Assembly (NCBI GenBank): GCA_020072925.1
Contig: JAIQGA010000086.1
Coordinates: forward strand, 1 to 35,070
Origin: Terriglobia bacterium
Lineage (GTDB): Bacteria; Acidobacteriota; Terriglobia; UBA7540
Direction of reading: 5' to 3'
Length of the DNA: 35,070 nucleotides
The notes under the pieces were generated by a model. That model had not been told where the DNA came from. It saw only the letters and a list, made by a program, of their open reading frames with translations, and did no database searches. Positions 4,501-24,850 of this stretch are shown here, in pieces (the stretch's first letter is position 1; each line of letters begins with the position of its first letter). The position numbers and the translations under genes were made by a program.

Positions 4501-4867
4501 GGGGGCGTTCCGGTTTCGACGGGAGCCCTTGCGCTTAGGAGGCATGCCGGGGGTCCACACCACCCGTAATCGGAGTGGGTCAAAGACAACTGCCAACACG
4601 CAGTATGCCTACGCTGCCTAATTAATTAGGTGGCCGTCTCCTCCTTCAGGCCCGCATGATGGAACGAGGCGTCGATTGGCGGGCTAGTTCGGGATTCAAC
4701 GCTTCGGGATTCCGGGCGAGATCCCCGCGAGGGGAAGGAGGCTAGCCGGCGGTCCGTTCTTGCCCGTTCCTGAGAACCGCGGGCGAAAGCAAGAAGCGAA
4801 TGGGCTAAGCATGTAGGCTTCTCTGCGTAAGACTCTTCGGACGGGGGTTCGACTCCCCCCGCCTCCA
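4501..4867 (+). ncRNA. ssrA: Transfer-messenger RNA (tmRNA)
   Basis: This one-piece tmRNA rescues stalled ribosomes with SmpB and tags the nascent peptide for proteolysis. The 5' end GGGGGCG (4501-4507) pairs with CGCCTCC (4860-4866), with one G-U pair, to form the acceptor stem. The T-arm GGTTCGACTCC lies just before it, and A4867 is the discriminator. The terminal CCA is not encoded. The 5' TTCCGGTTTCGACGGG segment is the usual D-arm-like start. The resume codon is GCC at 4592, and the tag reads ANTQYAYAA followed by TAA at 4619-4621. A tag of this kind is consistent with Acidobacteriota. Only the order of the main parts was checked, not every pseudoknot. Confidence 0.97.
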
Positions 4868-4961
4868 CGTTAGTTCTTTATAATCAATGCCATAGCTCGA
4901 TTTTTCAGGCTCAAAAATAGGCCTAACTCCAGAGGCATTTCCTTGGTCAATTTGCAATAGG

Positions 4962-8995: not shown

Positions 8996-9066
8996 TGTTG
9001 CCTCCTGCGTCTGTTTCGGTCCATTCTCCGAATTCCTTCACCTAGCTGCCTTCTTGTGTGGTCATT

Positions 9067-9711
9067 CTATCTCCCAAACCGCTCGAACCGATACGCCAAC
9101 TCCGGCCCTCCTTCGCCCTCGTAGGCGAGTTGGGCGACGAGCAGCGCGAACGGCTCGGTGTAACGGGCGATCCGTAAGGGGCCAGCATCCACCGGATCGA
9201 AACCTGCGTCGCGGATCAGCTCGGCAGCCACCGCTTTGCCGCTCTTGTCGTCGCCGCAGTACACCAGGCTCGGCCGAGTTTCTTTGTCTTTGGATTCGAA
9301 TACTCCGAACAGCACTTCGCTGGGCACGGTTTGGAATGCCGCGACTACGCGAGACCGTGGAACTTTCTCTGCGAGTTCCTCGGCTCCTGACGTCGTGGTG
9401 CCAATGATGAGTTTCGTGTTGCCAGCGTCCATCGGGAGACAGCAGGTTAAGATCACCTTGCCCGACAAGTCGCCCGCCTGATTCAGCACGTCCTCGATTC
9501 GGGACCAGTGCACGGCCAGCAATATCGCGTCCGCTTCCTGCGCGGCCTCACGCGGTGTGCCCGCCCGCGCCTTGCCCTTGGCCTCCCCCGCCAGTTTCTT
9601 TAGTTTATCTGTGCTGCGCGCATAGCTGAATACCACCTCATGTCCGGCACGCGCAAAGATCGTCCCGAGTTTGCCGCCCATCAACCCCGAACCCAAAATG
9701 CTAACTCGCAT
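9067..9711 (-). CDS. NADPH:F420 reductase-like dinucleotide-binding protein
   Basis: The ATG at 9711-9709 follows GAAGGAG by 4 bases and gives a 214-residue protein. The N-terminus is a Rossmann fold (MRVSILGSGLMGGKLGTIFARAGHEVVFSYAR). The Ser/Arg after the second strand favours NADP. DAILLAVHW and KVILTCCLPMD follow the pattern of the F420-dependent NADP reductase/ketopantoate-reductase-like family (the F420_oxidored type). It would pass hydride between NADP and a flavin- or deazaflavin-like partner. No F420 biosynthesis gene is in the window, so an F420 role is not supported locally. The C-terminal half carries PSEVLFGVFE and YEGEGGPELAYRFER. It is 70 bases downstream of the membrane-protein gene. 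Confidence 0.85.
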   Translation of the reverse strand: MRVSILGSGLMGGKLGTIFARAGHEVVFSYARSTDKLKKLAGEAKGKARAGTPREAAQEADAILLAVHWSRIEDVLNQAGDLSGKVILTCCLPMDAGNTKLIIGTTTSGAEELAEKVPRSRVVAAFQTVPSEVLFGVFESKDKETRPSLVYCGDDKSGKAVAAELIRDAGFDPVDAGPLRIARYTEPFALLVAQLAYEGEGGPELAYRFERFGR

Positions 9712-9781
9712 GCTACTCCTTCGATGCGAAGGTGTGCCTGCACCTGCAAGAGCTACCTTTCTCTTTGTAGTCGATGGCTTC

Positions 9782-10321
9782 TCACCGATGCCGCTCAGCC
9801 TCCGGCTGTTCCCCTCTCTTGATGAAGACGTGATACGTGACGGCGTCCCAGGCATTGTGAATACCAACAAAGAGGAGCAGCAGCGTCACAGCGCCTACCA
9901 CGAACAGGGCTGGGCGTGCATGGGAGCGAGCCACGCATGCCGATCCAGCCAGCATTGCGTATGCCACAAATGGAAGCAGAACATGAAACAACCAGTCCTC
10001 AAATACGGGCTGGTAAGTGGTTTGTACTTTCATGCGCCGAGCGACGAGGACGCCGTATACAATCCCAAAGAGGCCCACTAAGCCCCAAAGAACTGCGACA
10101 GTGGCGATTCCGTTCCATGGAATGCTTACAATCGCTGACAGCAACAGCACGACTCCGAAATGAACGACGCTCGGCGTGGCAAATGCGGCGCCAGCCTCCG
10201 CCGTAGCTAGCGCCGGTCTGTCGGCAATGAGCGTAATGACGACGAACTGCAATCCGATCAGGGCGCCGGCAGACGAGCCGACGATGACGTAGAAGTTTTC
10301 CCATCCATTGAATGCTGTCAT
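9782..10321 (-). CDS. Five-helix integral membrane protein, function unknown
   Basis: I chose the ATG at 10321-10319 (MTAFNGWENF) because the related fragment at 4962-5117 starts at the same place. An upstream in-frame start would add 8 residues. The 179-residue protein shows about five hydrophobic segments: YVIVGSSAGALIGLQFVVITLIA (about 9-31), FGVVLLLSAIVSIPW, VAVLWGLVGLFGIVYGVLVA, HVLLPFVAYAMLAGSACVA and LFVVGAVTLLLLFVGIHNAW. A basic cytoplasmic tail ends it. I recognise no family and no catalytic residues. The gene lies between the dinucleotide-binding protein and a pair of palindromic repeats. Confidence 0.8.
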   Translation of the reverse strand: MTAFNGWENFYVIVGSSAGALIGLQFVVITLIADRPALATAEAGAAFATPSVVHFGVVLLLSAIVSIPWNGIATVAVLWGLVGLFGIVYGVLVARRMKVQTTYQPVFEDWLFHVLLPFVAYAMLAGSACVARSHARPALFVVGAVTLLLLFVGIHNAWDAVTYHVFIKRGEQPEAERHR

Positions 10322-10411
10322 ATCATCGCTCGACCTCATTACCAAGAATGCCAGCTCGCCTGCTGCTCCTTCCTCGCCTTTTCTTTACTCAGATTTGAGA
10401 GAAGCGGGCAG

Positions 10412-10489
10412 CCACGGCATGCTTTCTATGCCGTGGGTTCTTTCCGTCGCGACATCGAAAAAGCCCACGGCAGAAAAACCGTGCCGTGG
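10412..10489. repeat. Pair of CCACGGCA/TGCCGTGG palindromes
   Basis: Two stem-loops share the same stem sequence. The first pairs CCACGGCAT (10412-10420) with ATGCCGTGG (10428-10436) around a 7-base loop. The second pairs CCACGGCA (10465-10472) with TGCCGTGG (10482-10489) around a 9-base A-rich loop. The arms can also pair between the two hairpins. They fill the spacer between the aldo/keto reductase at 10508 and the membrane-protein gene. The family differs from the REP elements around the RAYT and from the hairpins at 594-676. Confidence 0.7.
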
Positions 10490-10507
10490 ATACCAGCATT
10501 TTGCCGC

Positions 10508-12037
<1,530 letters not shown>

Positions 12038-13780
12038 CTAACCCCGAACGAAGGCGGCAAGCTCGTTAGCTCGACGGATGACTTCGCTGCGGTCCATGTC
12101 GCGGTATTTTTGGGGCAAGAGGCTCTTGCTGGTGCATTCCAGGACCGCGGCCAAGTTCTGCAGCTCGATCTCGGTAGGATAGGAAGGGGGAATGAAATCC
12201 TCGAGGGCTGCCTTAAGATCGTCCAGGTCCACGGACGCCTCGTTTTCCAGCGCGCTCTTCATGCGCGCGCGCGTCAACACGGCTTCGATGTCGGCGCCGG
12301 AGAGCCGGCCTCCATACTCCAGAAAAAACTTCTCGGCCTCGGGCGAACCCAACTGTGTCCCCGTCTTCTTTTGCATGGCTCGCAGCATCGCCAGACGCTC
12401 TTCGTCGGTTTCAGGATAAAACAAAGCCAGATGCTCCTCGGCGCGTCCTTGACGCTTAAGGTCCACGGGGAGCAGGTCGGGCCGGCAAGTCAACAGGAAC
12501 CAGATCACCTTCCCGCGCAGCTCGGTGTTCCCCATGAATTGCGCGATCTGCGCGAAGACGCGGTTCGAGACTCCGCTGTCGCCGGAGCTGGACCGGTTGC
12601 CAAGCTGCGCGTCGGCTTCATCCACGATGACCGCGATCGGGCTCATGGCTTTCAGCAGATTGAGCACTCGTTCGAGGTTGCCCTCCGTGACGCCTTGCCA
12701 CATGCTCCGAAAATTCTTTAGCACTACGGCTGGAATGCCCACCTCGCCAGCAAAGCAAGTGGTCAGGAATGTCTTTCCGGTGCCGACGGGCCCGCAGATC
12801 ACATATCCCATGGGCAGCACATCCGTCTTTCCGGCACGAATGGCCGCCGCAGCGTTCTGGAGCTTCTTCTTCGCCTGCTCGCTTCCCGCTACCATCGACA
12901 AATCGAAGCGGCTCTGAACGAACTCCAGCAATCCGCCGGATTCCGCCTCGATGAGCTCTTTCTTCCGCTGTGCCAGGAATTTCTGGGTGAGCGGCTGACG
13001 GTTCTGGACGGCCTGGGAAATCAAGCTCTGGAGTTGGACGCGCTTCAAACCCGCGCTCAGCTTGGCCAGCGTCGGGGCGGTGACATCGGAGCCGGGAGGC
13101 AAGGGCGTGTCGCCCAACTGTTGCAGGATGAATTCCAACCGCTCGTTTTCCTCCGGCAAGGGAATGGCAATCGTGGCCACGCCCGGATGTTGCGCGATGC
13201 CTTGATGGAGTTCGATTTGGTTTTCGGCGATCAAGCAAAGGGTCACATCGGCGCGAAGAAAGGCGGGATTAAGGGCCCAGCGCTTAAGAATCACCAGGGA
13301 GTTCCGGTCCTCGGCGGACATACCGGAGACTTCTCCCGCGGGGGCGATCGTCTCTGCGAAATCGATGACCAGCGCAATCTTCTTCCCGTCGCTGATGCGG
13401 AGGCGCAAATAGTTGTCCAGGAGGTTTAGCACCCCGTCGGGATTGCGCGGCAGGCCGGCGGCGTAATTGGTGCCATGGAAGCTGTCGTATCCCGCCAAGG
13501 CGCGCGTGAAATCGCTCTGCATCTCGGGGGCGGCAAACGCGAGCCCCCCGCCGCGGTCGTAACTCATGACCAGATCGCGTTGCCCGAACAGGGCTTCATT
13601 CAAGAAGCGTGCGAGAGGAAGAAACTCAATTGTGTCGCCACGCTTGAGCGGGACCAAGTCCCGCACATTTCCGCACAGCACGAACAGCGCGATGGTCCGT
13701 GAGTAGTACTTTTCGGAGAGCTGCTGTGCCCAGGCCGGCAACGATTCGAGACGCGTCGTTCTGGCAGGATTCACGGTCAT
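12038..13780 (-). CDS. AAA ATPase, last gene of the PspA/ABC operon
   Basis: This 580-residue cytoplasmic protein has an N-terminal, degenerate ATPase-like half (about 1-290; VIDFAETI and CLIAENQIELH resemble decayed Walker B and sensor 1 strands) and a C-terminal active AAA module. Walker A is GPVGTGKT (330-337), Walker B is VIVDEAD (384-390), and sensor 1 is FLLTCRPD. Arginines 443 and 446 in LKRQGRAEEH are candidate Arg fingers. GRLSGADIEAVLTRA is the usual sensor-2/lid helix. The layout, a dead N-half and a live C-half, resembles Ycf46-type AAA proteins. It would remodel a protein complex at the cost of ATP; given its neighbours, the target may be at the envelope. It starts 4 bases after the previous stop. 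Confidence 0.88.
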   Translation of the reverse strand: MTVNPARTTRLESLPAWAQQLSEKYYSRTIALFVLCGNVRDLVPLKRGDTIEFLPLARFLNEALFGQRDLVMSYDRGGGLAFAAPEMQSDFTRALAGYDSFHGTNYAAGLPRNPDGVLNLLDNYLRLRISDGKKIALVIDFAETIAPAGEVSGMSAEDRNSLVILKRWALNPAFLRADVTLCLIAENQIELHQGIAQHPGVATIAIPLPEENERLEFILQQLGDTPLPPGSDVTAPTLAKLSAGLKRVQLQSLISQAVQNRQPLTQKFLAQRKKELIEAESGGLLEFVQSRFDLSMVAGSEQAKKKLQNAAAAIRAGKTDVLPMGYVICGPVGTGKTFLTTCFAGEVGIPAVVLKNFRSMWQGVTEGNLERVLNLLKAMSPIAVIVDEADAQLGNRSSSGDSGVSNRVFAQIAQFMGNTELRGKVIWFLLTCRPDLLPVDLKRQGRAEEHLALFYPETDEERLAMLRAMQKKTGTQLGSPEAEKFFLEYGGRLSGADIEAVLTRARMKSALENEASVDLDDLKAALEDFIPPSYPTEIELQNLAAVLECTSKSLLPQKYRDMDRSEVIRRANELAAFVRG

Positions 13781-13784
13781 AGGC

Positions 13785-14729
13785 TTAATTCCTCAGGCGC
13801 GTCCGCGCCGGGGACTGGGCGGCGGACTCCGAGGATCCGGAGGGCACCGGCGCCAGTGTTTCACCCATGTCAGGCGCGGCCATCTCGAAGATCGCTTCTA
13901 CTTCCCGGACGGTCTCTTCGGTTTGCTCCACATCGTGCACCAGACTCTCCAACTGGTCACTGACTTGTTGGGGGTCGCGCATGGTGACGGACTGGTCGCG
14001 GATCAGGGCAAGAACGTCCTCAATGGCCGCGCACTGCGCGTCGACCACTTTCTCGTTCTCGCGCACTTTGTCGAATTTCTCCAACCGCTTGGTAAGAATC
14101 TCGATGCGCCGGCGGTTGATCTCCTGCACTTTGGGCGGATCGGACTCGACTGCTTTTTGCAGCTTCGTCAGGTCGCGCTTGATCGACTCCGGGTCGGTGG
14201 TCCGCAAGTACTCACTGTGCTGAAAGGCCGCGTAAAGCAGGCGGACGTGGGAATTGAGCAGACCGTCCAGCCGCTGCTGCATCTGTTCCAGGAACATCTG
14301 CGAGGTGGACGACAAGCGGCTGTAATTGGCGCGAATCGTGCCGCAGATCGCCGCCAGGGTGGCATAACGCTTGCGCATTTCCGGAGGAAGCTCGTTGAAC
14401 ATGGTGCTCAGTTTCATCTCCCGCTGGCGCTTCTCCTCGGCGTACTTCCAGGAACGCACCAGGCGGCGGAAAGCGCTGCTTTGGGGCACCAAGCTCAGGT
14501 AGATCAGTTCCAGCCCGGCGGCCAGGACCAAGGGGAGGCCCGTGCCTGACACCAAAGCGAAAAGCGCGGCGCCTGCCAGTCCAATCCAATTGTACTGCCA
14601 GCGGAGGGCCTCTTTGACGAAATTGATCTGGTCCAGGCCGAGTTCATGGGCTTCGCGCTCGACCGCGCCACGCAACATGGAAACGGGCTTTTGGGGACCG
14701 CCTTGTTGGGGAGGAGTCTCCTCAGGCAT
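13785..14729 (-). CDS. Membrane-anchored coiled-coil protein, function unknown
   Basis: The ATG at 14729-14727 overlaps the stop of the ABC ATPase gene by one base (TGATG), so the pair is coupled. The 314-residue product has a hydrophobic hairpin at about residues 45-80 (NWIGLAGAALFALVSGTGLPLVLAAGLELIYLSLV). A long, mostly helical, charged region follows with coiled-coil character at about 85-275 (for example NRRRIEILTKRLEKFDKVRENEKVVDAQCAAIEDVLALI). The low-complexity tail is Ser/Pro/Ala-rich. I recognise no named family. Its place directly before the AAA ATPase gene makes it a reasonable membrane adaptor or substrate for that ATPase, by inference from gene order only. Confidence 0.8.
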   Translation of the reverse strand: MPEETPPQQGGPQKPVSMLRGAVEREAHELGLDQINFVKEALRWQYNWIGLAGAALFALVSGTGLPLVLAAGLELIYLSLVPQSSAFRRLVRSWKYAEEKRQREMKLSTMFNELPPEMRKRYATLAAICGTIRANYSRLSSTSQMFLEQMQQRLDGLLNSHVRLLYAAFQHSEYLRTTDPESIKRDLTKLQKAVESDPPKVQEINRRRIEILTKRLEKFDKVRENEKVVDAQCAAIEDVLALIRDQSVTMRDPQQVSDQLESLVHDVEQTEETVREVEAIFEMAAPDMGETLAPVPSGSSESAAQSPARTRLRN

Positions 14730-15553
14730 CAGACACCCACTCGGACCTGCCCGCGCCCGGGCGCGCGTCGCAGGCAAGCCAGGACATAGTCCTGGAGCTC
14801 ATGGAAATCCTGGCGCTGCTTCATGGCCGGCTCGCGCGGGCGGCCGAACGGAACCGGGACATCCTCCACAATAGTACCCGGTCGGGCGCTGAGAATAAAG
14901 ATGCGGTCGGCGAGATAGATGGCCTCCTCCACATCGTGCGTAACAAATAGCACGGTGCAGGCGGTCTCGTCCCAAATGCGCAGCAATAGATGCTGCATAT
15001 CGGTTCGAGTCTGGGCGTCCAGCGCCCCGAAAGGCTCATCCATTAAGATGACCTCAGGCCGGACGGCGAGCGTGCGCGCGATCGCTAAGCGCTGCTGCAT
15101 GCCTCCGGAGAGGGTGTCGGGATAGACTTTCTCAAAACCCGCTAGACCCACGGCCTGGATGAGGCGCGCCACCGTCTCCTTCCGCTCTGCTGCGGGGACG
15201 TCATTGATCTTCATGCCGTAGGCAACGTTCTCGGCGACCGTCAGCCACGGGAAGGAAGTGTATTTCTGAAAGACCATGCCCCGGTCGCGGCCCGGTCCTT
15301 CAACGGGCCTGCCGTTGACCAGAATCTGCCCGCTATCCGGCCGGTCCAAGCCTGCAATCATCCTTAGAATCGTTGACTTGCCGCACCCCGAGGGCCCAAG
15401 CAGGACGCGGAATTCGCCCACGTCGCGCCCCTCGGGCGAGAAGGCGTCTTCGACCTCCACGCTCACGTCGTGGACGGCCTCGATCTTCTCACCCGCCGGG
15501 CTCCGAAAAGTGCGGGAAACGTTCTGAAGGCTGACTTTGATTTTATTTGGCAT
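14729..15553 (-). CDS. ABC importer ATP-binding protein, nitrate/sulfonate/taurine type
   Basis: The ATG at 15553-15551 lies inside the end of the permease gene (11-base overlap), which fixes the start and gives 274 residues. Walker A is GPSGCGKS (53-60), the Q-loop is FQKYTSFPWLTV (about 95-106), the signature is LSGGMQQR (148-155), and Walker B is VILMDEPFGALD (168-179). The switch histidine is H206 in VTHDVEEA. This is the SsuB/TauB/NrtD pattern. It energises uptake of small oxyanion or sulfonate-like solutes through the adjacent permease. A 10-residue insert before the Walker A strand (DAFSPEGRDV) is slightly longer than usual. The substrate is unknown. Confidence 0.94.
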   Translation of the reverse strand: MPNKIKVSLQNVSRTFRSPAGEKIEAVHDVSVEVEDAFSPEGRDVGEFRVLLGPSGCGKSTILRMIAGLDRPDSGQILVNGRPVEGPGRDRGMVFQKYTSFPWLTVAENVAYGMKINDVPAAERKETVARLIQAVGLAGFEKVYPDTLSGGMQQRLAIARTLAVRPEVILMDEPFGALDAQTRTDMQHLLLRIWDETACTVLFVTHDVEEAIYLADRIFILSARPGTIVEDVPVPFGRPREPAMKQRQDFHELQDYVLACLRRAPGRGQVRVGV

Positions 15554-16397
15554 GGGCCTTTGCTTTCGCCGGAGCACTGGCCCCGACCGCGGCGACGGGC
15601 TCGCTTGCACCTCGCACCGCGCGATGCCAGGGGAACAGGCGACGCTCCAAAAACGTCAACAGCCATCGAAACAGGAAAGCTGCAAATCCGATCGCAATGA
15701 TGCCCGCGTATACTCTCTCGAAATCGAGGACCTTGCGCGCCGCCTCCACCATGTAGCCGACGCCTTTGCGGGCATTCACCATCTCGGCCAGGATGACGTA
15801 CGTCCAGCCGATGTCATAAAGAATCCGAAAGGAGCTGAAGATGCCCGGGAACGAGGCTCGAAACATCAGCCACAAAGCGTTGCGGCGTTTGGCGCCCAAC
15901 GTATAAGCCGTTTCCAGCAGGCTGTCATCAACCTTGTTGACTTCCTCCACCACCACGGCCAGCAGATAGAAAAACATGCCGAACCAAAGGAAGGCCACTT
16001 TCATGGTCTCGTCCATGCCGAACAAGGCGATGAAGGCCGGCAAGAAGGCCGTGATGGGCATGGCGCGCATTGGCGCCGCCACGGGATTGACCAGATCGTG
16101 CACCCACCGAAAACTCGCCATCAACAGGCCCAGCGGAATCGCGATGCACGCGCACCAAAAGAAGGCCTGAGCGATCCTCCACCAACTCTGGAGCACGTTC
16201 CCCAAGAGGTTATATTCGCTCCAGAGCCGCCCAAACGCTCGTATGACCCCGATGGGCCGGGGGAGAACAAACGGCGGCAGGAAATCCCAATGGGTCAGGA
16301 CGAACCAGGCGACAATGATTAGGCCCCAGATAAGGAAAGCCAGGCCCAGCCGCTGGCGCGGGGAAATTTCCTTGCGGATTGCGAACCAGTTCGCCAT
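15543..16397 (-). CDS. ABC importer permease, nitrate/sulfonate/taurine type
   Basis: This 284-residue inner-membrane protein has about six transmembrane segments, the first being LGLAFLIWGLIIVAWFVLTH. The cytoplasmic EAA loop reads ETAYTLGAKRRNALWLMFRASFPGIFSSFRIL and would dock the ATPase. The order LPPFVLPRPIGVI near the N-terminus, then PMRAMPITAFLPAFIALFG, is that of SsuC/TauC/NrtB permeases. The C-terminal tail is Ala/Lys-rich (about 25 residues) and non-conserved. It starts 20 bases after the solute-binding/OmpA fusion gene and overlaps the ATPase gene, so the three form one transporter unit. A single permease gene implies a homodimer. Confidence 0.94.
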   Translation of the reverse strand: MANWFAIRKEISPRQRLGLAFLIWGLIIVAWFVLTHWDFLPPFVLPRPIGVIRAFGRLWSEYNLLGNVLQSWWRIAQAFFWCACIAIPLGLLMASFRWVHDLVNPVAAPMRAMPITAFLPAFIALFGMDETMKVAFLWFGMFFYLLAVVVEEVNKVDDSLLETAYTLGAKRRNALWLMFRASFPGIFSSFRILYDIGWTYVILAEMVNARKGVGYMVEAARKVLDFERVYAGIIAIGFAAFLFRWLLTFLERRLFPWHRAVRGASEPVAAVGASAPAKAKAHAK

Positions 16398-16417
16398 CGG
16401 CTAACCGCGCGAGCGCG

Positions 16418-17989
16418 TTATGCCCCCGGGTTTGGATACACTTTGATGTCGGTACGGCGATTCTTCTCGCGGCCTTCCGGAGTCGTGTTGGTATCCATGG
16501 GATTGTCAGGGCCGTTCCCCCGGGTCCGCATGCGGGCGGCGGGATAGCTGTACTTCTCCATCAAAAACTGCTTGACGGCATCCGCGCGTTCCTTGGAAAG
16601 CTGCATGTTATAGGCGCGCGAGCCCGTGGAATCCGTGTTGCCTTCGATATCTACGATGGTGTTTTCATAGGCCCGCATGAAGCTGCCGATTTCGTCCACG
16701 ACCGCGCGCGAATCAAGACTCATCTTCGACGAGTTCGTCTCGAAGTAGATCGAGCGATGTTGGGTGGCAATTGGCGTGGCGCCCTTGGGGGGCGCTTTGT
16801 ACTCGATGGGCGCTTCGGAGGGCGTGGTCGGGAACTTGCCGTTCAAGGCCGCGATGTAACGCCGGTCTATGGTCGCTTCGGGGTCCGCAATGCTTCGGAT
16901 GAGCCGCTCCTGGCGGTACATTTCCTGAGCCATCTTGAAGATGTTGGAGTAATCCGAACCGGAATCTCGCGATCCAAAGAAGTTCAGGTTATCGGCATAG
17001 TCCGCCAGCCGCACGCCGCCGAGCATGGTCTTCGCCAAATCGGAAGGAATGTTGAAATCCTTGATGGTGCCGATCAGCGTGTAGGCACGGGCGGGCTGTT
17101 CGTTGATGAAGGTGACTCCCTCCAACCAGCCTTGCGCGAACTTGACAACCGTTTGGGGATTACGAGCCGCAAAGGCGTCGCTAACCACCAGAATATCGGC
17201 GATCAGCCGGTTGGCCACATGCGTGTCATAAATCTTCTTCGAACCGGGGCGCTTGGACACGGCATCGCTCATGTCGGGGTCCCAGGCCACCGCGGCATCA
17301 ACCTTCTGCTGCGCGAAGAGGGTGGCCGGCTCGATGCCGTCCTTCGTGTGCACGGCCTTGGCGAATATTTCGTTGCGCTGCTCGGTGCCCAATCCCGAGC
17401 TCATCAGCCCGTTCCAAAGCAGAAAATGCGAGGGCGTGTAAGGAGCGAAGGCCACGGTTTTTCCCGCCAGGTCTTCGATGCTGTTGATCCCCTGACGGCC
17501 GATGAGGCCGTCCGCGCCGCGCGACCAATCCACCATATAGAAAGCGTGCGAGCCAAAACCTTTGTCCTGGAATTGGGCGTAGTCCTTTGCCCAAACGTCC
17601 ACGGTGGTCAGCATCACATCGACGTTATTGGTGGCCAAGGCCGCGGCGCCCTCCGTCCAGTCGTCAATGATCTTGAAAGACACTTTCAGCCCCTTCTTGT
17701 CGTAAATGGAGCCGGGGGCCGTGTCGAGCCCGCCGTTTGCCACGAGGCCACCCACGCATCCCACCCAGATATTCACGCGGACGCGCACGTCGCTCGTCTC
17801 CGCGGTTTCTGCGGCGGGCAGCACAAGTGGCTTCGAGGTGTCCACAACCGGGCCTGAGGTGCGCCCAGACCGGCCGCTAAACAACTTGTGGAAGTTGACC
17901 ACGCCGTACCTGTCGAGGCTGTACACCACCAGCCCCAGTCCGATGAGGAAAATAAGAGTCCAGCCGCCCTTTTCGATTTTGACTGCCAT
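16418..17989 (-). CDS. Membrane-anchored solute-binding protein fused to OmpA peptidoglycan-binding domain
   Basis: The 523-residue protein starts with GGAGG 6 bases before its ATG. Residues 10-24 (WTLIFLIGLGLVVYS) form a transmembrane anchor, not a cleavable lipoprotein signal. A Ser/Pro linker follows. Residues about 67-375 are a NMT1/SsuA-like two-lobed binding domain (NIWVGCVGGLVANGG, VDVMLTTVDVWAKDY, VAFAPYTPSHFLLWNGL, VDAAVAWDPDM, DILVVSDAFAARNPQ). Residues about 412-519 are an OmpA/Pal domain (SIYFETNSSKMS, DIEGNTDSTGSRAYNMQLSKERADAV, REKNRRTDIKVYP). Asp452 and Arg511 match the diaminopimelate-binding pair of OmpA domains. The protein should span from inner membrane to cell wall and feed the adjacent ABC permease. 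The fusion is unusual; the ligand is unknown. Confidence 0.92.
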   Translation of the reverse strand: MAVKIEKGGWTLIFLIGLGLVVYSLDRYGVVNFHKLFSGRSGRTSGPVVDTSKPLVLPAAETAETSDVRVRVNIWVGCVGGLVANGGLDTAPGSIYDKKGLKVSFKIIDDWTEGAAALATNNVDVMLTTVDVWAKDYAQFQDKGFGSHAFYMVDWSRGADGLIGRQGINSIEDLAGKTVAFAPYTPSHFLLWNGLMSSGLGTEQRNEIFAKAVHTKDGIEPATLFAQQKVDAAVAWDPDMSDAVSKRPGSKKIYDTHVANRLIADILVVSDAFAARNPQTVVKFAQGWLEGVTFINEQPARAYTLIGTIKDFNIPSDLAKTMLGGVRLADYADNLNFFGSRDSGSDYSNIFKMAQEMYRQERLIRSIADPEATIDRRYIAALNGKFPTTPSEAPIEYKAPPKGATPIATQHRSIYFETNSSKMSLDSRAVVDEIGSFMRAYENTIVDIEGNTDSTGSRAYNMQLSKERADAVKQFLMEKYSYPAARMRTRGNGPDNPMDTNTTPEGREKNRRTDIKVYPNPGA

Positions 17990-18047
17990 GAATGGCCTCC
18001 GGGAATTTCCACAAGACCGCCCGCATCGGGGCGGAATCTACCACACG

Positions 18048-19018
18048 CTACTTGGCGAGGGAGGTGGCAAGTTTCCAATCCACGCTGGCCCCGGGGTCGG
18101 AAGGGGCGCCCTTCAGGACTCCCGCCTCGTGGTACATCTGCTGGGCTGACTTGAATACTCGAACGTAGTCCGAAGTCGCGCCCTGCGCACCAAAGAAAGC
18201 CTTGTGCTGATTGGCGTCGGCCAGCAGGACTCCGCCGAGCATGGTCTTGGCCAAGTCGGTGGGAATGTTGAAGTCCTTGATGCTGCCGATCAGTGTATAG
18301 GCCCGCGCGGGCTGTTCGTGGATGAATCGCACGCCCTCCAGCCAGCCCTGGGCAAAGGTGATGACGGTCTGAGGATTGCGCGCCGCAAAGGCGTCGCTTA
18401 CCACAAGGATGTCGGCGATTAAATTCTGCGCCGTGTGCGTGTCGTAGATCTTCCGCGAGCCGAGGCGCTTGGCGACCGCGTCGCTCATATCGGGGTCCCA
18501 CGCGACCGCCGCGTCCACTTTTTGCTGCGCAAAGAGCGTGGCGGGCTCGATGCCATCTTTGGTATGAATTCCATTATCGAAGATGGCATTGCGCTGTTGG
18601 GGGCTCAAGCCCGATTCTCGTAGGCCCGTCCACAAAAGAAAATGCGACGGCGTGTAAGGCGCGAAAGCCACTTTCTTTCCCACCAGGTCCTTCAGGCTGT
18701 TGATGCCTTGAGCGGCAATGACGCCGTCGGCGCCGCGCGACCAGTCCACCAGTTCGTTGCCAGCGCCGCCGCGCCGTCCGTCCAATCATCAATAATCTTG
18801 AATGAGACCTTCAGACCCTTCTGGGCGTAAATAGAACCGGGAGCGGTGTCCAGGCCGCCATTCGCCACCAGTCCGCCCGCGCAGCCGACCCAGATGTTGA
18901 CGCGGACGCGCACCTGGTTGGCCTCCGCCCCATAGGCCTGGGACAGTGTGAAACCAGGCTCCCACAGCCCGAGAAGCAGGGCCAGAACGCCACATCGCCT
19001 CTTCCATGTTGAAGCCAT
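18048..19018 (-). pseudogene. Paralogous periplasmic solute-binding protein, broken by a 91-base deletion
   Basis: A good start (ATG 19018, GGAGG 6 bases upstream) and a signal peptide of about 31 residues (LALLLGLWEPGFTLSQAYGA) lead into NIWVGCAGGLVANGGLDTAPGSIYAQKG. This frame continues to ALATN near base 18755. It then shifts, and the rest of the domain (VDWSRGADGVIAAQGINSLKDLVGKK to SVDWKLATSLAK) is read in another frame to the stop at 18048. In the fusion paralogue 31 codons separate the two points; here only 2 bases do, a net loss of 91 bases that breaks the frame. Apart from that the two are closely similar, but this copy ends without an OmpA domain. It is probably inactive unless the deletion is an assembly error. 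Confidence 0.85.
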
Positions 19019-19020
19019 CT

Positions 19021-19058
19021 CTCACCTCCGTAATCGGTCAGTCGAACCTGACCGTGAG
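19021..19058 (-). promoter_or_regulatory. Stem-loop in the pspA-SBP spacer, overlapping the ribosome site
   Basis: A 7-bp stem (CGGTCAG 19035-19041 with CTGACCG 19048-19054) has a 6-base loop. An outer CTCAC (19021-19025) can pair with GTGAG (19054-19058). In the minus-strand transcript the outer arm falls on the GGAGGTGAG ribosome site of the binding-protein gene. The inner and outer stems share base 19054, so they may be alternatives. The element could reduce translation of the downstream gene or mark an mRNA processing point; this is inference. There is no T-run. Confidence 0.4.
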
Positions 19059-19103
19059 CCTCCCCACGATCTTCACCCACAAGGTAGCGACGGGGTTTGC
19101 GGC

Positions 19104-19835
19104 TCAGGAAGTCTTCTGCGCTTCCTTTCCGCCGATCGTCTTCTCCGCGGCGGGGGCGGCGGGTTCGGGTGTGAGCAGCCCCATTTCCACCTTGAATTGC
19201 TTGACGAGTTCATTGGCGCGGATCTTTTCGGCTGCCTCTTCGACCTTGAATTTTTCCTGGTCCACATTGCCCAGCGCCATCTCCATGCGGGCTTCGTTGA
19301 CGGCGGTTTCCTCCTCGATCCTGCGCACCATTTCGTCGTGCGTCTGGCTGATTCCCGCGACCTCGAACTGCTCCATGGCGTCCGCGACCTTTTTCTGCCA
19401 CTGGCCGCGGCGATAGTCGCGGATGGCGTTCAGCGCCTCTTGAGTCTTCCGCTCCTTCTCGCGAAGGAAAGCCTGCTTGACCATCATCGCTTTCTCAAAA
19501 GCGGCGCGGGCGGTGGCAAGTTGGCCCTGGTTTCGCGCCATCGCGCCGCGGACCTGCTCGAGTTGGGTGGCGAAACTCCCCGCCAAATCATCGCGATTCG
19601 CCTGGATCGCTGCCTTGACCTTCGCCGTCAGGTCATTGATGTCGGACTTGTATTTCGCTTCTTCTTTTTCCAGGAGGGTCACGTTCGCCTTCACCATGGC
19701 GATACTTTCGTTCATCCGCGGGACCTGGTCATTCATATCGCGGATGTTCTGCTCAAGAATGATCTCCGGATTTTCTGCGGCGGAAATGAAAAAGCCGATA
19801 AAGGAACGCACCATGCGCGTCAGGCGTCTCCACAT
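19104..19835 (-). CDS. PspA/IM30 (Vipp1) family protein
   Basis: This 243-residue, almost wholly helical protein begins 12 bases after the previous stop with GAGAGGAG 5 bases before its ATG. The N-terminal amphipathic helix (LTRMVRSFIGFFISAAENPEIILEQNIRDM) is typical of PspA/IM30 and binds the inner membrane. The coiled-coil hairpin runs from about residue 30 to 205 and contains VPRMNESIAMVKANVTLLEKEEAKY and TARAAFEKAMMVKQAFLREKERK. The tail (LTPEPAAPAAEKTIGG) is disordered. Family members assemble into ESCRT-III-like rings or rods that maintain the membrane under stress. No PspF, PspB or PspC gene is adjacent, so the partners here are non-canonical. Confidence 0.9.
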   Translation of the reverse strand: MWRRLTRMVRSFIGFFISAAENPEIILEQNIRDMNDQVPRMNESIAMVKANVTLLEKEEAKYKSDINDLTAKVKAAIQANRDDLAGSFATQLEQVRGAMARNQGQLATARAAFEKAMMVKQAFLREKERKTQEALNAIRDYRRGQWQKKVADAMEQFEVAGISQTHDEMVRRIEEETAVNEARMEMALGNVDQEKFKVEEAAEKIRANELVKQFKVEMGLLTPEPAAPAAEKTIGGKEAQKTS

Positions 19836-19847
19836 AAGAACTCCTCT

Positions 19848-20549
19848 CTAGGGCTTCGCCCCCTGCGGTTTCGTGCTCGGAGGTGGTTCCGTAGGGTGGC
19901 CGCTGGTGGTAATCGGATTCTCCGTCACGAAGTATGAAACCGCTTCGTAGATCTTCTGCTCTTCCTGTTGTTTCTTGAGCCGCCAGCCGAAGAAGCGTTC
20001 TTTTTCCTTGGCGACCTCATCGTTGTTCTTTTGCATCCGCGCCTGGTGCTCGGCGACCAAGCGGTCCAGTTCGGCCTGGATCTGACGATTGTCCTGTGCC
20101 TTGCGCGTTTCGAGTTCGTGCAGAGCCGACTCCTGCACGCGTTCGAAAGTGTCGAGGGCGCGGTCGCGCCGCACTGCGTCTTCGATGACTTCCTGCAACT
20201 TCACACCGGCGGCATCGAGGGCCAGCAGGATGGAACTCCGTTTGACCGTGGGCGCCAGACTGCGGATGTGCTCGTTCTGGAGCATCTCCGAGACTTTGAG
20301 AATCGTGTATCCGTGGCTGGCATCGGGGATTTCCGCCGCCCGGTAGATTTCCTCGAACGAGCTCGGGTTATTAACCGGCGTCGTGAATTTAGGATCTACA
20401 GCCGCGGCCGCAGCGATTTCCGCTACCGTCTGCGCCGCGCTGAGGGGCACCTTGGGAGGTGGTGCGGATTCGGGGGCGGGCACCTGCTCCGAACCGCTAC
20501 CGGCAGGCTGGTCCACCGAGAGAATAAAGTTGTACCATTTCTTTCCCAT
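19848..20549 (-). CDS. Coiled-coil protein, first gene of the PspA/ABC operon, function unknown
   Basis: I chose the ATG at 20549-20547 (MGKKWYNFILSVD) over a GTG 21 bases upstream; the ribosome site is weak for either. The 233-residue product has a Pro/Ser/Ala-rich segment at about 15-45. A small helical domain follows at about 45-120 (FEEIYRAAEIPDASHGYTILKVSEMLQNEHIRSL, then KRSSILLALDAAGVKLQEVIEDAVRRD), then a coiled coil at about 120-200. The C-terminal tail is Pro/Thr-rich. No transmembrane segment is visible. The domain with LDAAGVKLQEVIEDAVRRDRALD occurs, as far as I recall, in uncharacterised proteins next to pspA genes. It probably works with the PspA homologue immediately downstream. 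Confidence 0.8.
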   Translation of the reverse strand: MGKKWYNFILSVDQPAGSGSEQVPAPESAPPPKVPLSAAQTVAEIAAAAAVDPKFTTPVNNPSSFEEIYRAAEIPDASHGYTILKVSEMLQNEHIRSLAPTVKRSSILLALDAAGVKLQEVIEDAVRRDRALDTFERVQESALHELETRKAQDNRQIQAELDRLVAEHQARMQKNNDEVAKEKERFFGWRLKKQQEEQKIYEAVSYFVTENPITTSGHPTEPPPSTKPQGAKP

Positions 20550-20636
20550 GGCCACCCCCGCGGCAAGCACGCAGCGGTACAGGTATGCCCGTTCTAGCTC
20601 GCTCAGGCTCTTTCAAGAGACCGCCAATGTCGGGAA

Positions 20637-20665
20637 AAGTTATGACACTACCCCGGCAAAGTCAA
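20637..20665 (-). promoter_or_regulatory. Likely sigma-70-type promoter of the PspA/ABC operon
   Basis: Read on the minus strand, TTGACT (20665-20660) and TAACTT (20642-20637) are 17 bases apart, about 90 bases before the first gene's start. Both boxes are good matches to consensus and nothing else in the spacer competes. No sigma-54 GG/GC pair was seen, unlike PspF-driven pspA promoters in enterobacteria. Confidence 0.6.
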
Positions 20666-21030
20666 GCCCGCTACCCCTCTCATTGATAACCTGATCTTCA
20701 CTCCACGCGGGAAAATACAAAGAGGCGACTCAAAAAGGCACCGCGCGGGTGGGCGAGCTTTCGATGGATGGCACTCCGACTGTCCTGCTGGCGAAATCTT
20801 CTCGGGACGCGCTCGCAGGAGTTCGCCCAATCGGCGCCCAAGCTTTCACCGTATTTGAAGCCGCGATCAAGGAAGAGCCTTCTGACAAGTGAAGTCTCCA
20901 ATGCAGTTGAGGGGGGCTTTCCCGCGCGACGAACTGCCGCGAGAAGATCTCGACGGCTGCTTTATACGTTCTGCTTTCTGAATTCTGATTTCTACATACC
21001 ACCTTCCGCCTGCTGCCTTCCGCTTTCTGC
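20666..21030. other. Spacer between divergent-looking units, with degenerate pyrimidine-rich repeat
   Basis: No gene is supported. From about 20955 to 21045 the plus strand is made of imperfect CTGCTTTCTGAATTCTG and CCTTCCGCCTGCTGCC units, a degenerate tandem repeat that runs into the last codons of the dehydrogenase. A similar run (TGATTCCTGACTTCTGCC) lies at about 4433-4455. The remainder (20700-20950) has short open frames without coding features and may be gene debris. Confidence 0.45.
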
Positions 21031-21843
21031 CTACCGAGTCGGCCTCTGCGGTCCCGCCCAACTCATGCGACTTTGATTTGTGGCGAAGTGCAGGACGGGG
21101 CGCGGCAGAATGCGTAGCAGGACCCAAAGAAGCTTGTACTGCCATCCTGGCACGACAAACAGCTTGCCTTGATCGAGGCCCTTCAGTGACGCGGCCACAA
21201 CATCCTCGGCGGACATCCAGAGGCTTTTCGGCACCACTTTCCGGTCGACGCCCATAACATCGTGGAATTCCGTGTAGGTAAACCCCGGGCACAGCGCCTG
21301 CACGCGGACCGGCGAGCGAGCGCTCTTGAGCTCGAGGTAAATCCCCTCCGTAAAGCAATTCATCCAGGCTTTCGAGGCGTAATAACTTGTGTTGCCCGAG
21401 CGCGGCGCGAAAGCGGCGAGGGAAGAAACATTGATGATGGCGCCCTTCTTCCGAGCCACCATCGCGCGCAGCGCCGCGTGGGTCAGGCGCAGAGTGGCCA
21501 TCACGTGGAGGCGATGCATGGCTTCCTGCGGGCCCAGATCGGAGCGACAAAACGGGGCCGCGACGCCGAAGCCCGCGTTGTTCACCAGGAACTCGAGGTC
21601 TGCCGCCCGCGCGATGTAGTCTTCCACGACCTTCAAGGCGTCTTCCTGGATGAGATCCGCGACGAGCGTGTCCGCCTGCACCTTATGCTGGCGCTGGAGC
21701 TCGACCGCCAACGCTTCCAGGCGCTCCCGTCGCCTCGCCACCAGCACCAGGTCGAACCCGCGCGCGGCGAGTTGCCGCGCGAACTCCGCTCCCAGGCCCG
21801 CCGATGCGCCTGTGACCAGCGCCTTAGGCCGCACCTCTGCCAT
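21031..21843 (-). CDS. Short-chain dehydrogenase/reductase
   Basis: This 270-residue NAD(P)-dependent oxidoreductase has GGAGG 4 bases before the ATG. The Rossmann motif TGASAGLG (11-18) is followed by VARRRERLEAL, in which the arginines favour NADP. NNAGFG, NVSSLAAF (catalytic Ser) and YYASKAW (Tyr and Lys) are all present. The overall sequence is that of the classical SDR group annotated YqjQ/DltE-like, which acts on carbonyls or hydroxyls of unknown substrates. The last 15 or so residues lie in the degenerate pyrimidine-rich repeat, so the natural C-terminus may have been altered. It appears to be transcribed alone. Confidence 0.93.
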   Translation of the reverse strand: MAEVRPKALVTGASAGLGAEFARQLAARGFDLVLVARRRERLEALAVELQRQHKVQADTLVADLIQEDALKVVEDYIARAADLEFLVNNAGFGVAAPFCRSDLGPQEAMHRLHVMATLRLTHAALRAMVARKKGAIINVSSLAAFAPRSGNTSYYASKAWMNCFTEGIYLELKSARSPVRVQALCPGFTYTEFHDVMGVDRKVVPKSLWMSAEDVVAASLKGLDQGKLFVVPGWQYKLLWVLLRILPRPVLHFATNQSRMSWAGPQRPTR

Positions 21844-22072
21844 GTTCCCTCCTCTTCCCTTCTGCCCCGCGCGCGATTATGCCATGCGAACCGCAAAATG
21901 GGATGTCAATTCGCGGCGGCGGCGTAGACCCTTGCACGGCCGTCAGCCACGGATTGCAGGAGCCGAGCCCTTCTATAGCGCGGAGGGCAACCTGCTTGGC
22001 AGCTTGGCGTCGCCTTGCAATGTAACCATTCCGATACTACCCTAGCGTTGGCCCCTCGCGGGAGTGCCGACG

Positions 22073-23965
22073 ATGTCCAAACCTCTCCGTTTGCTTCTGC
22101 CCCTGATTCTCGGTTCTTGGGGGTTCCTCACTTCCTGCGGCGGAGGCAGTTACTCCGCGCCACCCCCGCCAGCGCCGATCGGCGTGAGTCTCTCGGTAAG
22201 CTCGGTGACGATCTACCAGGACGGCACGCCGGGGTCGGTGGATGTCACGATTACCCGGCCGTCAGGCAATTCCAACAACGTGACGCTCACCGTGCAGCCC
22301 GCGGTCAATCTCCTCACCGCGACGATCCAATCTCCCGGCACGGGCAACACGGGTCAGGTCACCTTTACGACCGGCGGGCCGGTTCCTCTGCCCGGACAAG
22401 GAATTGCGGCAACGGAGTCGACGCCATCAGGGACATACAACCTGAACATCCACGCCAGCGACGGGACATCGAGCGGGAGCGCGCTCCTGGCGCTGACAGT
22501 GGGGATCGCCGCCCGTGTGGGCACCGCTATAGATTTGAGTCAAGGCGTCAACGGGCGGCTTCAGGAAGCGATGTCCACGTCGTTCCAGCCCGCTTCGTGG
22601 TCCGATGGATTCTTCGTGCAGAATCCCTCCGCCACCACACCGCTCGCGAACCTGCTGCCTCATCACATTCGCCTCCAGGCGCTGGAGCGGGACATACCTG
22701 AAACCGCGCCGCGAGCCTGGGACTTTACCCATCTGGATGCCGTGGTGAGCCCCGTAATGACCGCCGGCGACCACAGCCCGGAATTCCAGATCGCCAAGGC
22801 TCCGGCCTTTATGTACGACGCCTCGGGGAATTTCCTCGATTCGAGTTTCGACACCTTCGCCGGCTACGCGGCGGATCTGGTGAGATATTACAACACGCCC
22901 GCGGGGATTCTTGACGCGGCTTCCTGCAGCAAGAGTCCTTGTGTCTCCACTCCGCCCAACGGCGTGGGCCGCGTGGACTATTGGGGCATCTACAACGAGC
23001 CGAACATCAACGACGAGTTCAATGACAGCACCCAGAACCCGCAGGGCCCGCAAAACTATGTGGATATGTACAACGTGGTCGTGCCGCAGATGCAGGCCGT
23101 CGACCCCAGGATCAAGTTCGCTGCCGTCGAGCTTGCGGACTTCGGCAACGAGGCGACCAACTACATCCCCGCGTTTATACAGGGTGTGAACCAGCGGGTC
23201 GATGTTCTCGCCACGCACTTCTACGCCACCTGCAACCAGAAAGACTCCGACCAGCAACTCTTCGACGCCATCGACCAGTTCGTCCCGCACATTCAGTATC
23301 TCTACTCTCAGCTTCGCACCAAGCCCGCCCTGGCCAGTGTGCCGGTGTGGATGACCGAGAGCAATGTCAACGCCGACTATGACAAGGGCGCCGGTATCAG
23401 CGCCTGCAATGGGACGCTGTTTGTAACCGATCTGCGCGGCTCCAGCGCCTTTTTCGCCGCCTGGCGGCCGACGGCCTTCTCCAAGTTCGGCAAGGTGGGG
23501 CTGCAGGCGATGTATCACTGGGATTTCCCCGCCGACGCGCAGTTCGGCGAAGTCAACGACTCGAACGCGGCGCTCCAGTTGAGCTACTGGGTGGACTATT
23601 GGCTGGGCCGGTATTTCCCTTCCGACCCGGATGTTACCCCGACGGGAGCCGAAATCCTGCAGCTCGGCGTCAGTGAAGACTCGAGCGTCGAAACCCTGGC
23701 CGTGAGAAACGCGGATGGCAGCGTCGTGGTGATGGTCGCCAATCACGCCGTGCATTCGAGCACCGATAACAACGGCCCGGGCGATCCACGCGTCGTCGCG
23801 GTTGACCTCTCGGGGCTGGGGACGTTTTCCTCGGCATCTTTGCTCACCATCGACAAGAACTCCAGCGTGGCCAACGGGCCCGCAGCCGCGCCGGTTACCC
23901 CCGCGGCACAAATGACAATTCAGTTGGGAGGTTACGGCGTGGCGTTCCTGAAGCTGATTCCCTGA
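22073..23965 (+). CDS. Secreted lipoprotein glycoside hydrolase-like protein (clan A, GH39-like)
   Basis: The ATG at 22073 has CGGGAG 8 bases upstream; a GTG 9 bases earlier is possible. The 630-residue product has a lipoprotein signal with lipobox LTSC (Cys22). A Gly/Pro linker and an Ig-like beta domain (about 35-150; SLSVSSVTIYQDG, VDVTITRPSGNSNNVTL) follow. The catalytic barrel (about 150-520) carries YWGIYNEPNIN with the acid/base Glu309 in the clan-A NEP motif and PVWMTESNVN with candidate nucleophile Glu429. A C-terminal beta domain (about 530-630) ends with MTIQLGGYGVAFLKLIP. The layout suggests a cell-surface glycosidase of the GH39/GH5-like type with unknown specificity. It stands alone on the plus strand, about 230 bases from the dehydrogenase start. 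Confidence 0.85.
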   Translation: MSKPLRLLLPLILGSWGFLTSCGGGSYSAPPPPAPIGVSLSVSSVTIYQDGTPGSVDVTITRPSGNSNNVTLTVQPAVNLLTATIQSPGTGNTGQVTFTTGGPVPLPGQGIAATESTPSGTYNLNIHASDGTSSGSALLALTVGIAARVGTAIDLSQGVNGRLQEAMSTSFQPASWSDGFFVQNPSATTPLANLLPHHIRLQALERDIPETAPRAWDFTHLDAVVSPVMTAGDHSPEFQIAKAPAFMYDASGNFLDSSFDTFAGYAADLVRYYNTPAGILDAASCSKSPCVSTPPNGVGRVDYWGIYNEPNINDEFNDSTQNPQGPQNYVDMYNVVVPQMQAVDPRIKFAAVELADFGNEATNYIPAFIQGVNQRVDVLATHFYATCNQKDSDQQLFDAIDQFVPHIQYLYSQLRTKPALASVPVWMTESNVNADYDKGAGISACNGTLFVTDLRGSSAFFAAWRPTAFSKFGKVGLQAMYHWDFPADAQFGEVNDSNAALQLSYWVDYWLGRYFPSDPDVTPTGAEILQLGVSEDSSVETLAVRNADGSVVVMVANHAVHSSTDNNGPGDPRVVAVDLSGLGTFSSASLLTIDKNSSVANGPAAAPVTPAAQMTIQLGGYGVAFLKLIP

Positions 23966-24110: not shown

Positions 24111-24500
24111 TCACCAACTTCTTGCTTGCAAGCCCTCGATTTCCTTAAAGTGGTCGTCGCGAGTCAACAAGGTCAGTCCATACTGCTCTGTCAGAGCCGC
24201 GATCCAGACATCATTTTCGGGGATAGGCCGTCCCCGCTGCCGCAAGAAGTCCTTGATCCGCCCATAGTGTTTTGCCGTGATTGCATCGCACTGTTCAATC
24301 GCCATGTGCCCGACAAACTCATCGATCTTGGCCAAGTTTGTTTCCGCGCGTGCTGATTTGCGCGCCCCGAAATAGAGTTCGCCGACAACTATGCAGGGGA
24401 TGCTTACGAGATCAGCAGCACTTAAGAGGGATTGGAGGCTTCTGTCATTCGACCAGAGGGCGATAACAGCATTGGTATCAAGGAGGAATCTACCATTCAT
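24111..24500 (-). CDS. VapC-like PIN-domain toxin
   Basis: This 129-residue protein is a PIN-domain RNase. FLLDTNAVIAL holds Asp8, VVGELYFGA holds Glu41, PENDVWIAAL holds Asp97, and LLTRDDHF holds the fourth acidic position (Asp115/116), which together would bind Mg2+. VapC toxins cleave tRNA or rRNA when their antitoxin is degraded. The start overlaps the antitoxin gene by 11 bases, the usual coupling. All key residues are present, so the toxin is probably functional. The target RNA is not predictable from this sequence. Confidence 0.93.
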   Translation of the reverse strand: MNGRFLLDTNAVIALWSNDRSLQSLLSAADLVSIPCIVVGELYFGARKSARAETNLAKIDEFVGHMAIEQCDAITAKHYGRIKDFLRQRGRPIPENDVWIAALTEQYGLTLLTRDDHFKEIEGLQARSW

Positions 24501-24720
24501 TCAGGTCGGTCCGTTCACACTCTTCTTGAATCACTTTCTCCATCTCTTTGAGGTCCGCCGTGTCGAACATCCCCGCGAAGCGAAGTATTTCCTTGCCCGG
24601 AACCCCTACAGCTTCGCCTGATGCCAAGGTGCGAACAAATTCCAAAACACGGCGCTGCTGATCGACAGGCAACCTACCAAGTTGTTCGAAAATTTCTCTG
24701 TGGAGGCTCGGATCCACCAT
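24490..24720 (-). CDS. VapB-like antitoxin
   Basis: The ATG at 24720-24718 follows AGGTGAGG closely and gives a 76-residue acidic protein. It overlaps the toxin gene by 11 bases. The N-terminal part (LHREIFEQLGRLPVDQQRRVLEFVRTLA) resembles the DUF2281-like antitoxin domain in which LP..QQ..VL..V is conserved. The acidic C-terminal part (EMEKVIQEECERTDLNEW) would bind and block the PIN toxin. The N-terminal domain should bind its own promoter, giving conditional autoregulation (family knowledge). No operator palindrome was identified upstream. Confidence 0.85.
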   Translation of the reverse strand: MVDPSLHREIFEQLGRLPVDQQRRVLEFVRTLASGEAVGVPGKEILRFAGMFDTADLKEMEKVIQEECERTDLNEW

Positions 24721-24850
24721 TGTCCTCACCTGCCTTTCAGCGCGCTGGCAGCCTTGTTCAATCTGCACCTAGCCCACTGCAAAGTCAACCCGAAATCAGG
24801 CGTGGGTTGCAAACGAAGTAGTAGTCAGCGAAGATTGCATAGCTACGTAG

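Follow-up and report, generated by a model that had tools for sequence, protein, structure and literature searches.

Vps4 is the ATPase that turns over ESCRT-III, and the canonical Psp system is one that protects the membrane. Systems combining Vps4 with ESCRT-III have been described as confined to archaea and eukaryotes (ESCRT survey, PMC10936438), and which ATPase, if any, turns over the polymers of bacterial PspA/Vipp1 is a stated open question: Liu et al. 2021 (PMC8281802) ask whether PspF might act as the Vps4 of PspA/Vipp1, and structural work on PspA from 2024 (PMC11746142) speculates on chaperones or PspF.

A bacterial operon type described by Ravi et al. 2024 (PMC11237479) bears on this question. 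It comprises PspA, a protein with TM segments, a double AAA protein whose N-terminal copy is inactive, an ABC ATPase, a permease and a PBPB-OmpA protein, and its authors – whose main text does not mention a C-terminal motif in PspA – propose an ATP-dependent, ESCRT/Vps4-like membrane remodelling tied to solute transport. The operon discussed here, found in a window of 35,070 nucleotides (the whole stretch of DNA analysed, from a Terriglobia bacterium), is best classed as a member of this published type, since Ravi et al. describe the same gene set and role; the original prediction, made from the sequence alone, had taken the set to be undescribed. What is new here is the link between the PspA tail and the AAA ATPase, together with the apparently exchangeable nature of the importer; the likeness of the AAA pore loop to that of Cdc48 is a further addition.

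The operon and its proteins

The locus is a real operon, consisting of eight closely packed, co-directional genes – g1 to g8 in order of transcription – on the minus strand from 20549 to 12038. Their intergenic spacings of 12, 85, 58, 20, -11, -1 and 4 bases, which rest on the choice of an ATG at 15553 as the start of g6 and of an ATG at 14729 as that of g7, bear out the range of -11 to 85 first read from the sequence. The g6 start overlaps g5 by 11 bases, and the start codon of g7 overlaps the stop of g6 (TGATG). The single promoter-like site once placed in front of the operon found no support: its -35 hexamer TTGACT (20660..20665, minus strand) is weak, and a consensus promoter scan of positions 9000-23000 gives no minus-strand sites at all, while the two that it gives on the plus strand are fewer than the 3.3 that chance would yield. 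Rfam finds no RNA elements in the operon, and Pfam finds neither a transcriptional regulator nor a histidine kinase, PspB or PspC.

Families were assigned with Pfam and NCBIfam, which upheld the PspA, SBP, OmpA, permease, ABC ATPase and AAA assignments made earlier. The product of g2 (19104..19835, minus strand, like all the genes that follow) matches PspA/IM30 (PF04012, 4e-18, above the cut-off) and is the sole PF04012 protein found in a search of this genome; the profile of its family matches Vipp1/PspA structures over positions 1-223, and by sequence the protein belongs to the ESCRT-III superfamily (PspA/Vipp1).

The AAA ATPase encoded by g8 (12038..13780; 580 aa; AAA, 4e-19) has a divergent N-terminal half without a Walker A motif and a C-terminal half that is a Cdc48/p97-like AAA domain, predicted from its intact motifs to be active. 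The pore-loop-1 motif reads WQG here and WVG in most relatives; the original prediction called the protein Ycf46-like, and the solved structures nearest to the AAA profile are of the Cdc48/p97 type, the alignment running through the Cdc48 pore-loop segment SKWVGESE. The two halves of g8 align with each other weakly (141 columns, E 0.027, probability 1.8%), so that the inactive N-terminal AAA copy of Ravi et al. was not recovered with confidence, and Pfam finds no MIT domain in the protein, whose N-terminal ~280 residues form a different, larger domain.

Two further proteins, both predominantly helical and without a Pfam match, accompany this pair. The first, encoded by g1 (19848..20549; 233 aa), has a disordered start and a small helical domain followed by a single helix of ~88 residues, with an 'NPITT' motif near the C-terminus that is conserved in one subgroup (family alignment A3). 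A search with its predicted model (pLDDT 76.9, pTM 0.50) gave no match above Z 6 and none that was convincing, and a profile comparison with PspA found no homology. The second, the TM-hairpin coiled-coil protein encoded by g7 (13785..14729; 314 aa), combines an N-terminal hydrophobic hairpin with a cytoplasmic helical bundle (alignment A2; model pLDDT 76.7). Its fold search, in alignments of about 150 residues, returns BAR/F-BAR/arfaptin-like bundles with Z 9 to 11, ESCRT-III chains not being among the matches listed; as these Z values lie in the chance range of unrelated helical bundles, a BAR-like role for g7 is a guess. Because a profile comparison with PspA likewise detected no homology (hhalign 6%), the label 'Snf7 with TM', applied to this protein by Ravi et al., was not reproduced.

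The remaining genes belong to an ABC importer and its binding proteins. The 523-residue SBP-OmpA fusion encoded by g4 (16418..17989; NMT1/SsuA and OmpA matches) is intact and consists of an N-terminal membrane anchor – a segment that looks uncleaved – followed by a SsuA/TauA/NMT1-type binding domain and a C-terminal OmpA peptidoglycan-binding domain (PF00691, 5.5e-20). In the latter, D453 and R468 do not vary among 13 diverse members (alignment A1); the conserved Asp and Arg of OmpA-like domains serve diaminopimelate. The SsuC/TauC-type permease encoded by g5 (15543..16397; PF00528, BPD_transp_1, 1.9e-19; TauC, 1.9e-30) and the SsuB/TauB-type ATPase encoded by g6 (14729..15553; ABC_tran), in which the Walker A, signature and Walker B motifs are all intact, look transport-competent. 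SBP, permease and ATPase are closest to the Ssu/Tau/Sao systems, and as all three score below every curated NCBIfam equivalog cut-off (SsuA/TauA/SaoX, TauC/SaoP and TauB/SaoA models, respectively), the transported solute cannot be named. Searches for anti-phage defence returned weak matches only – IetA through the AAA domain and ZorB through OmpA – because these domains are shared.

The first binding-protein gene, g3 (18048..19018), of the SsuA/TauA type and without an OmpA domain, is broken; the original prediction took it to be intact. Two pieces, 18692-19018 and 18048-18785, make up its split reading frame, which is shifted because 91 bases near 18750 are missing inside the gene, as seen by comparison with an intact orthologue (L006:970-2031) and with its paralogue g4 in the same operon; in this copy g3 is either a pseudogene or the result of a faulty assembly. 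A g3-type extra SBP is missing from most relatives, and the OmpA-less duplicate was seen intact only in L006/L060 and L008/L079 (L006:970-2031; L008:5250-6365).

A recurrent gene order and a PspA tail that tracks the AAA

A sample of 396 genomes of the phylum contained the g4 protein in 31 cases, and a scan of 84,980 species genomes yielded 473 relatives. The best 80 of these 473, which were kept, come from Acidobacteriota, Myxococcota and Latescibacterota, plus one contig assigned to Methylomirabilota, perhaps through misbinning. Among 51 loci with enough flank, the exact order g1-PspA-SBP/OmpA-permease-ATPase-TM-AAA is found in 31, with five more lacking only g1. Such recurrence across phyla exceeds chance: at least five of the eight genes stand together in distant genomes (Acidobacteriota, Myxococcota, Latescibacterota), the order is not confined to close relatives, and the original proposal of one functional system is thereby strongly supported.

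PspA and the AAA protein travel together. Both are present in 40 of the 51 loci and both are absent from six, leaving five with one alone; moreover, both are encoded somewhere in all 18 genomes tested, a set picked so that loci missing PspA or the AAA were represented. PspA, the TM protein and the AAA seem to form the core of the system, and the importer looks like an exchangeable attachment, since PspA-TM-AAA occurs without any importer at two loci (L174 and L175) and with another ABC transporter at a myxobacterial one (L255), where PspA, g7 and the AAA surround an FtsX-type permease (PF02687) and its ABC ATPase; a frame resembling protein kinases is also present at L255. In one family of Acidobacteriota (f30), PspA-g7 is retained and the AAA is absent.

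The PspA proteins of the system share a characteristic ending: a variable linker, then K-T-(I/L/M)-G and a few residues, or K-T-M at the very end. In g2 the C-terminal tail is EKTIGGKEAQKTS. When a single pattern – defined after seeing the sequences and widened once, by extending the last position from G to G/A and allowing D at the second – is applied to the last 20 residues, it is found in 93 of 94 distinct operon PspAs (the sole exception ends in QKTL) and in all six from a related clade in which the genome also encodes the AAA, giving 99 of 100. The same pattern is found in none of 26 other PspAs, ten of which are same-genome paralogues of operon PspAs, and in none of the seven from the AAA-less family; among shuffled tails it turns up in 3%. 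A stricter version missed the KTIA and KDMG variants. In four of the seven AAA-less PspAs a degenerate stretch, KQI.(A/S)G or RQIEAG, persists at a greater distance from the C-terminus; decay would be expected to leave such remnants, yet their presence is also a caution.

A PspA tree from which the last 25 residues were left out places the AAA-linked PspAs in two lineages and requires three changes of the tail label, a count whose exact value is unsure because of the long branches; the link between tail and AAA rests on only about three independent changes. As the pattern is post hoc and was widened once, we regard this link as a hypothesis with a strong control and not as proof. Nonetheless, the restriction of the tail to where the AAA is present hints at how the latter might grip PspA.

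A possible mechanism and its rivals

We propose that the operon encodes a bacterial module that remodels membranes in the manner of ESCRT-III/Vps4 and is coupled to an ABC importer tethered to the wall, a reading to which we give an even chance. PspA would polymerise on the cytoplasmic face of the inner membrane, and the AAA encoded by g8 would bind the conserved C-terminal tail of PspA (K-T-I/L/M-G or K-T-M) and pull subunits through its pore, resulting in an ATP-driven turnover of PspA coats. This role for the AAA is the simplest reading of three things combined: a Cdc48-like pore loop, a polymer of the ESCRT-III superfamily and a tail that occurs along with the AAA. The hairpin protein encoded by g7 may anchor PspA, the AAA or both at the membrane. 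In the same membrane patch, the SBP-OmpA protein, held by its membrane anchor and by peptidoglycan, would hand a small organic solute to the SsuBC-type importer, which the activity of PspA and the AAA might sustain or by which it might be triggered. The original prediction of a wall-bound SBP feeding a PspA-backed importer comes near to the proposal of Ravi et al. 2024; it gave the AAA-PspA pair no role.

The importer could instead be the whole point of the operon, with PspA and the AAA stabilising or quality-controlling the permease of a specialised system for a sulfonate-, taurine- or urea-like solute, without any ESCRT-like turnover. The proximity of SBP, permease and ATPase to Ssu/Tau/Sao proteins and the conservation of their motifs favour this, as do some genomes that encode PspA and the AAA away from the SBP locus and keep g1, SBP, permease, ATPase and TM protein grouped. 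We nevertheless consider it unlikely, because a core that is found with no importer, or beside another ABC transporter, does not seem devoted to this one. Less likely still is an envelope-stress sensor, in which SBP-OmpA would monitor periplasm and wall and the ABC pair would act as a signalling transporter that recruits PspA. That PspA is a classic stress effector, and that membrane and wall both hold the SBP instead of leaving it freely soluble, would suit such a sensor; the transport-competent look of both ABC ATPase and permease would not, and the operon has neither a histidine kinase nor PspB/PspC. A sensor with transcriptional output is not supported, as the operon contains no regulator.

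It could also be asked whether the operon does much at all in this lineage, given that the 91-bp frameshifting deletion in its first SBP might signal decay and that presence among relatives is patchy (5 of 61 genomes). As the broken gene is an extra copy, and the other operon genes are all intact – for example, 84-96% identical to those of L006 – we regard a degrading operon as highly improbable. Under the preferred reading, a remodelling module coupled to an importer, the operon would be a case in which bacteria of soils and sediments link membrane remodelling genetically to the uptake of nutrients.

Comparison with known systems

With the SsuABC, TauABC and Sao importers, the operon has in common the families of its binding domain, permease and ATPase; unlike in those systems, the SBP forms a single protein with a membrane anchor and an OmpA domain, and scores under the equivalog cut-offs. 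With canonical Psp systems (pspFABC, liaIH) it shares PspA, whereas PspB, PspC, PspF, LiaI and a Toastrack protein are all missing, as had been noted at the outset. Closest is the operon type of Ravi et al. (PMC11237479), whose PspA, TM-segment protein, AAA, ABC ATPase, permease and PBP-OmpA fusion are all found in this operon, to which the locus described here adds g1 and the second, broken SBP.

Compared with Vps4, g8 has no visible MIT domain, is divergent in its N-terminal half and is closer to Cdc48/p97. What the operon has in common with the ESCRT-III/Vps4 (CdvB/CdvC) systems is a polymer of the ESCRT-III superfamily that ends in a short C-terminal tail, accompanied by an AAA whose pore loop is of the WVG type. 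A dedicated AAA partner, along with a PspA tail that tracks it, makes the question of the ATPase a testable one. Somewhat more tentatively than for the module itself, we suggest that some bacteria may own a true functional counterpart of ESCRT-III/Vps4, in which a dedicated Cdc48-like AAA would recognise the conserved K-T-I/L/M-G or K-T-M tail of its own dedicated PspA, with a membrane-hairpin partner completing a core that is plugged into different ABC transporters.

Loss and divergence of the AAA ATPase

In genomes of the acidobacterial family f30 (L177–L182), the Cdc48-like AAA ATPase is absent and the pair formed by PspA and the membrane-hairpin coiled-coil (TM) protein is retained; here, the AAA partner of PspA–TM has been lost naturally. 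In these same loci, the PspA tails – the C-terminal K-T-(I/L/M)-G or K-T-M found on PspAs from genomes with the ATPase – have decayed. Four other genomes (G065, G080, G084 and G123; loci L199 and L204–L206) encode a more divergent AAA relative, scoring 380–430 bits, together with a PspA that lacks the tail or with no PspA match; this relative probably represents a different subfamily with another client.

A different transporter in myxobacteria

PspA, the TM protein and the ATPase flank a different ABC transporter in two myxobacterial genomes (L255 and L256), with the SBP/OmpA importer encoded elsewhere in the same genomes, without PspA. In L255, the permease of this transporter is of the FtsX type, and the neighbours also include a protein-kinase-like frame.

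The genes g1 and g3

Near its C-terminus, the helical protein g1 (19848–20549, minus strand) carries a short conserved motif, NPITT, in one subgroup of its family alignment (A3). In one acidobacterial genome, a separate TPR–AAA protein (L193:47–1264) is encoded immediately upstream of g1–PspA. The duplicated binding-protein gene g3 (18048–19018, minus strand) has a 91-bp deletion that shifts its frame; two relatives have an intact gene.

Genes outside the operon

The window also contains a tmRNA gene (4501–4868, plus strand; tag peptide ANTQYAYAA). At 24111–24768 (minus strand), a PIN-domain protein and the small overlapping protein encoded upstream of it form a VapBC-like toxin–antitoxin pair.
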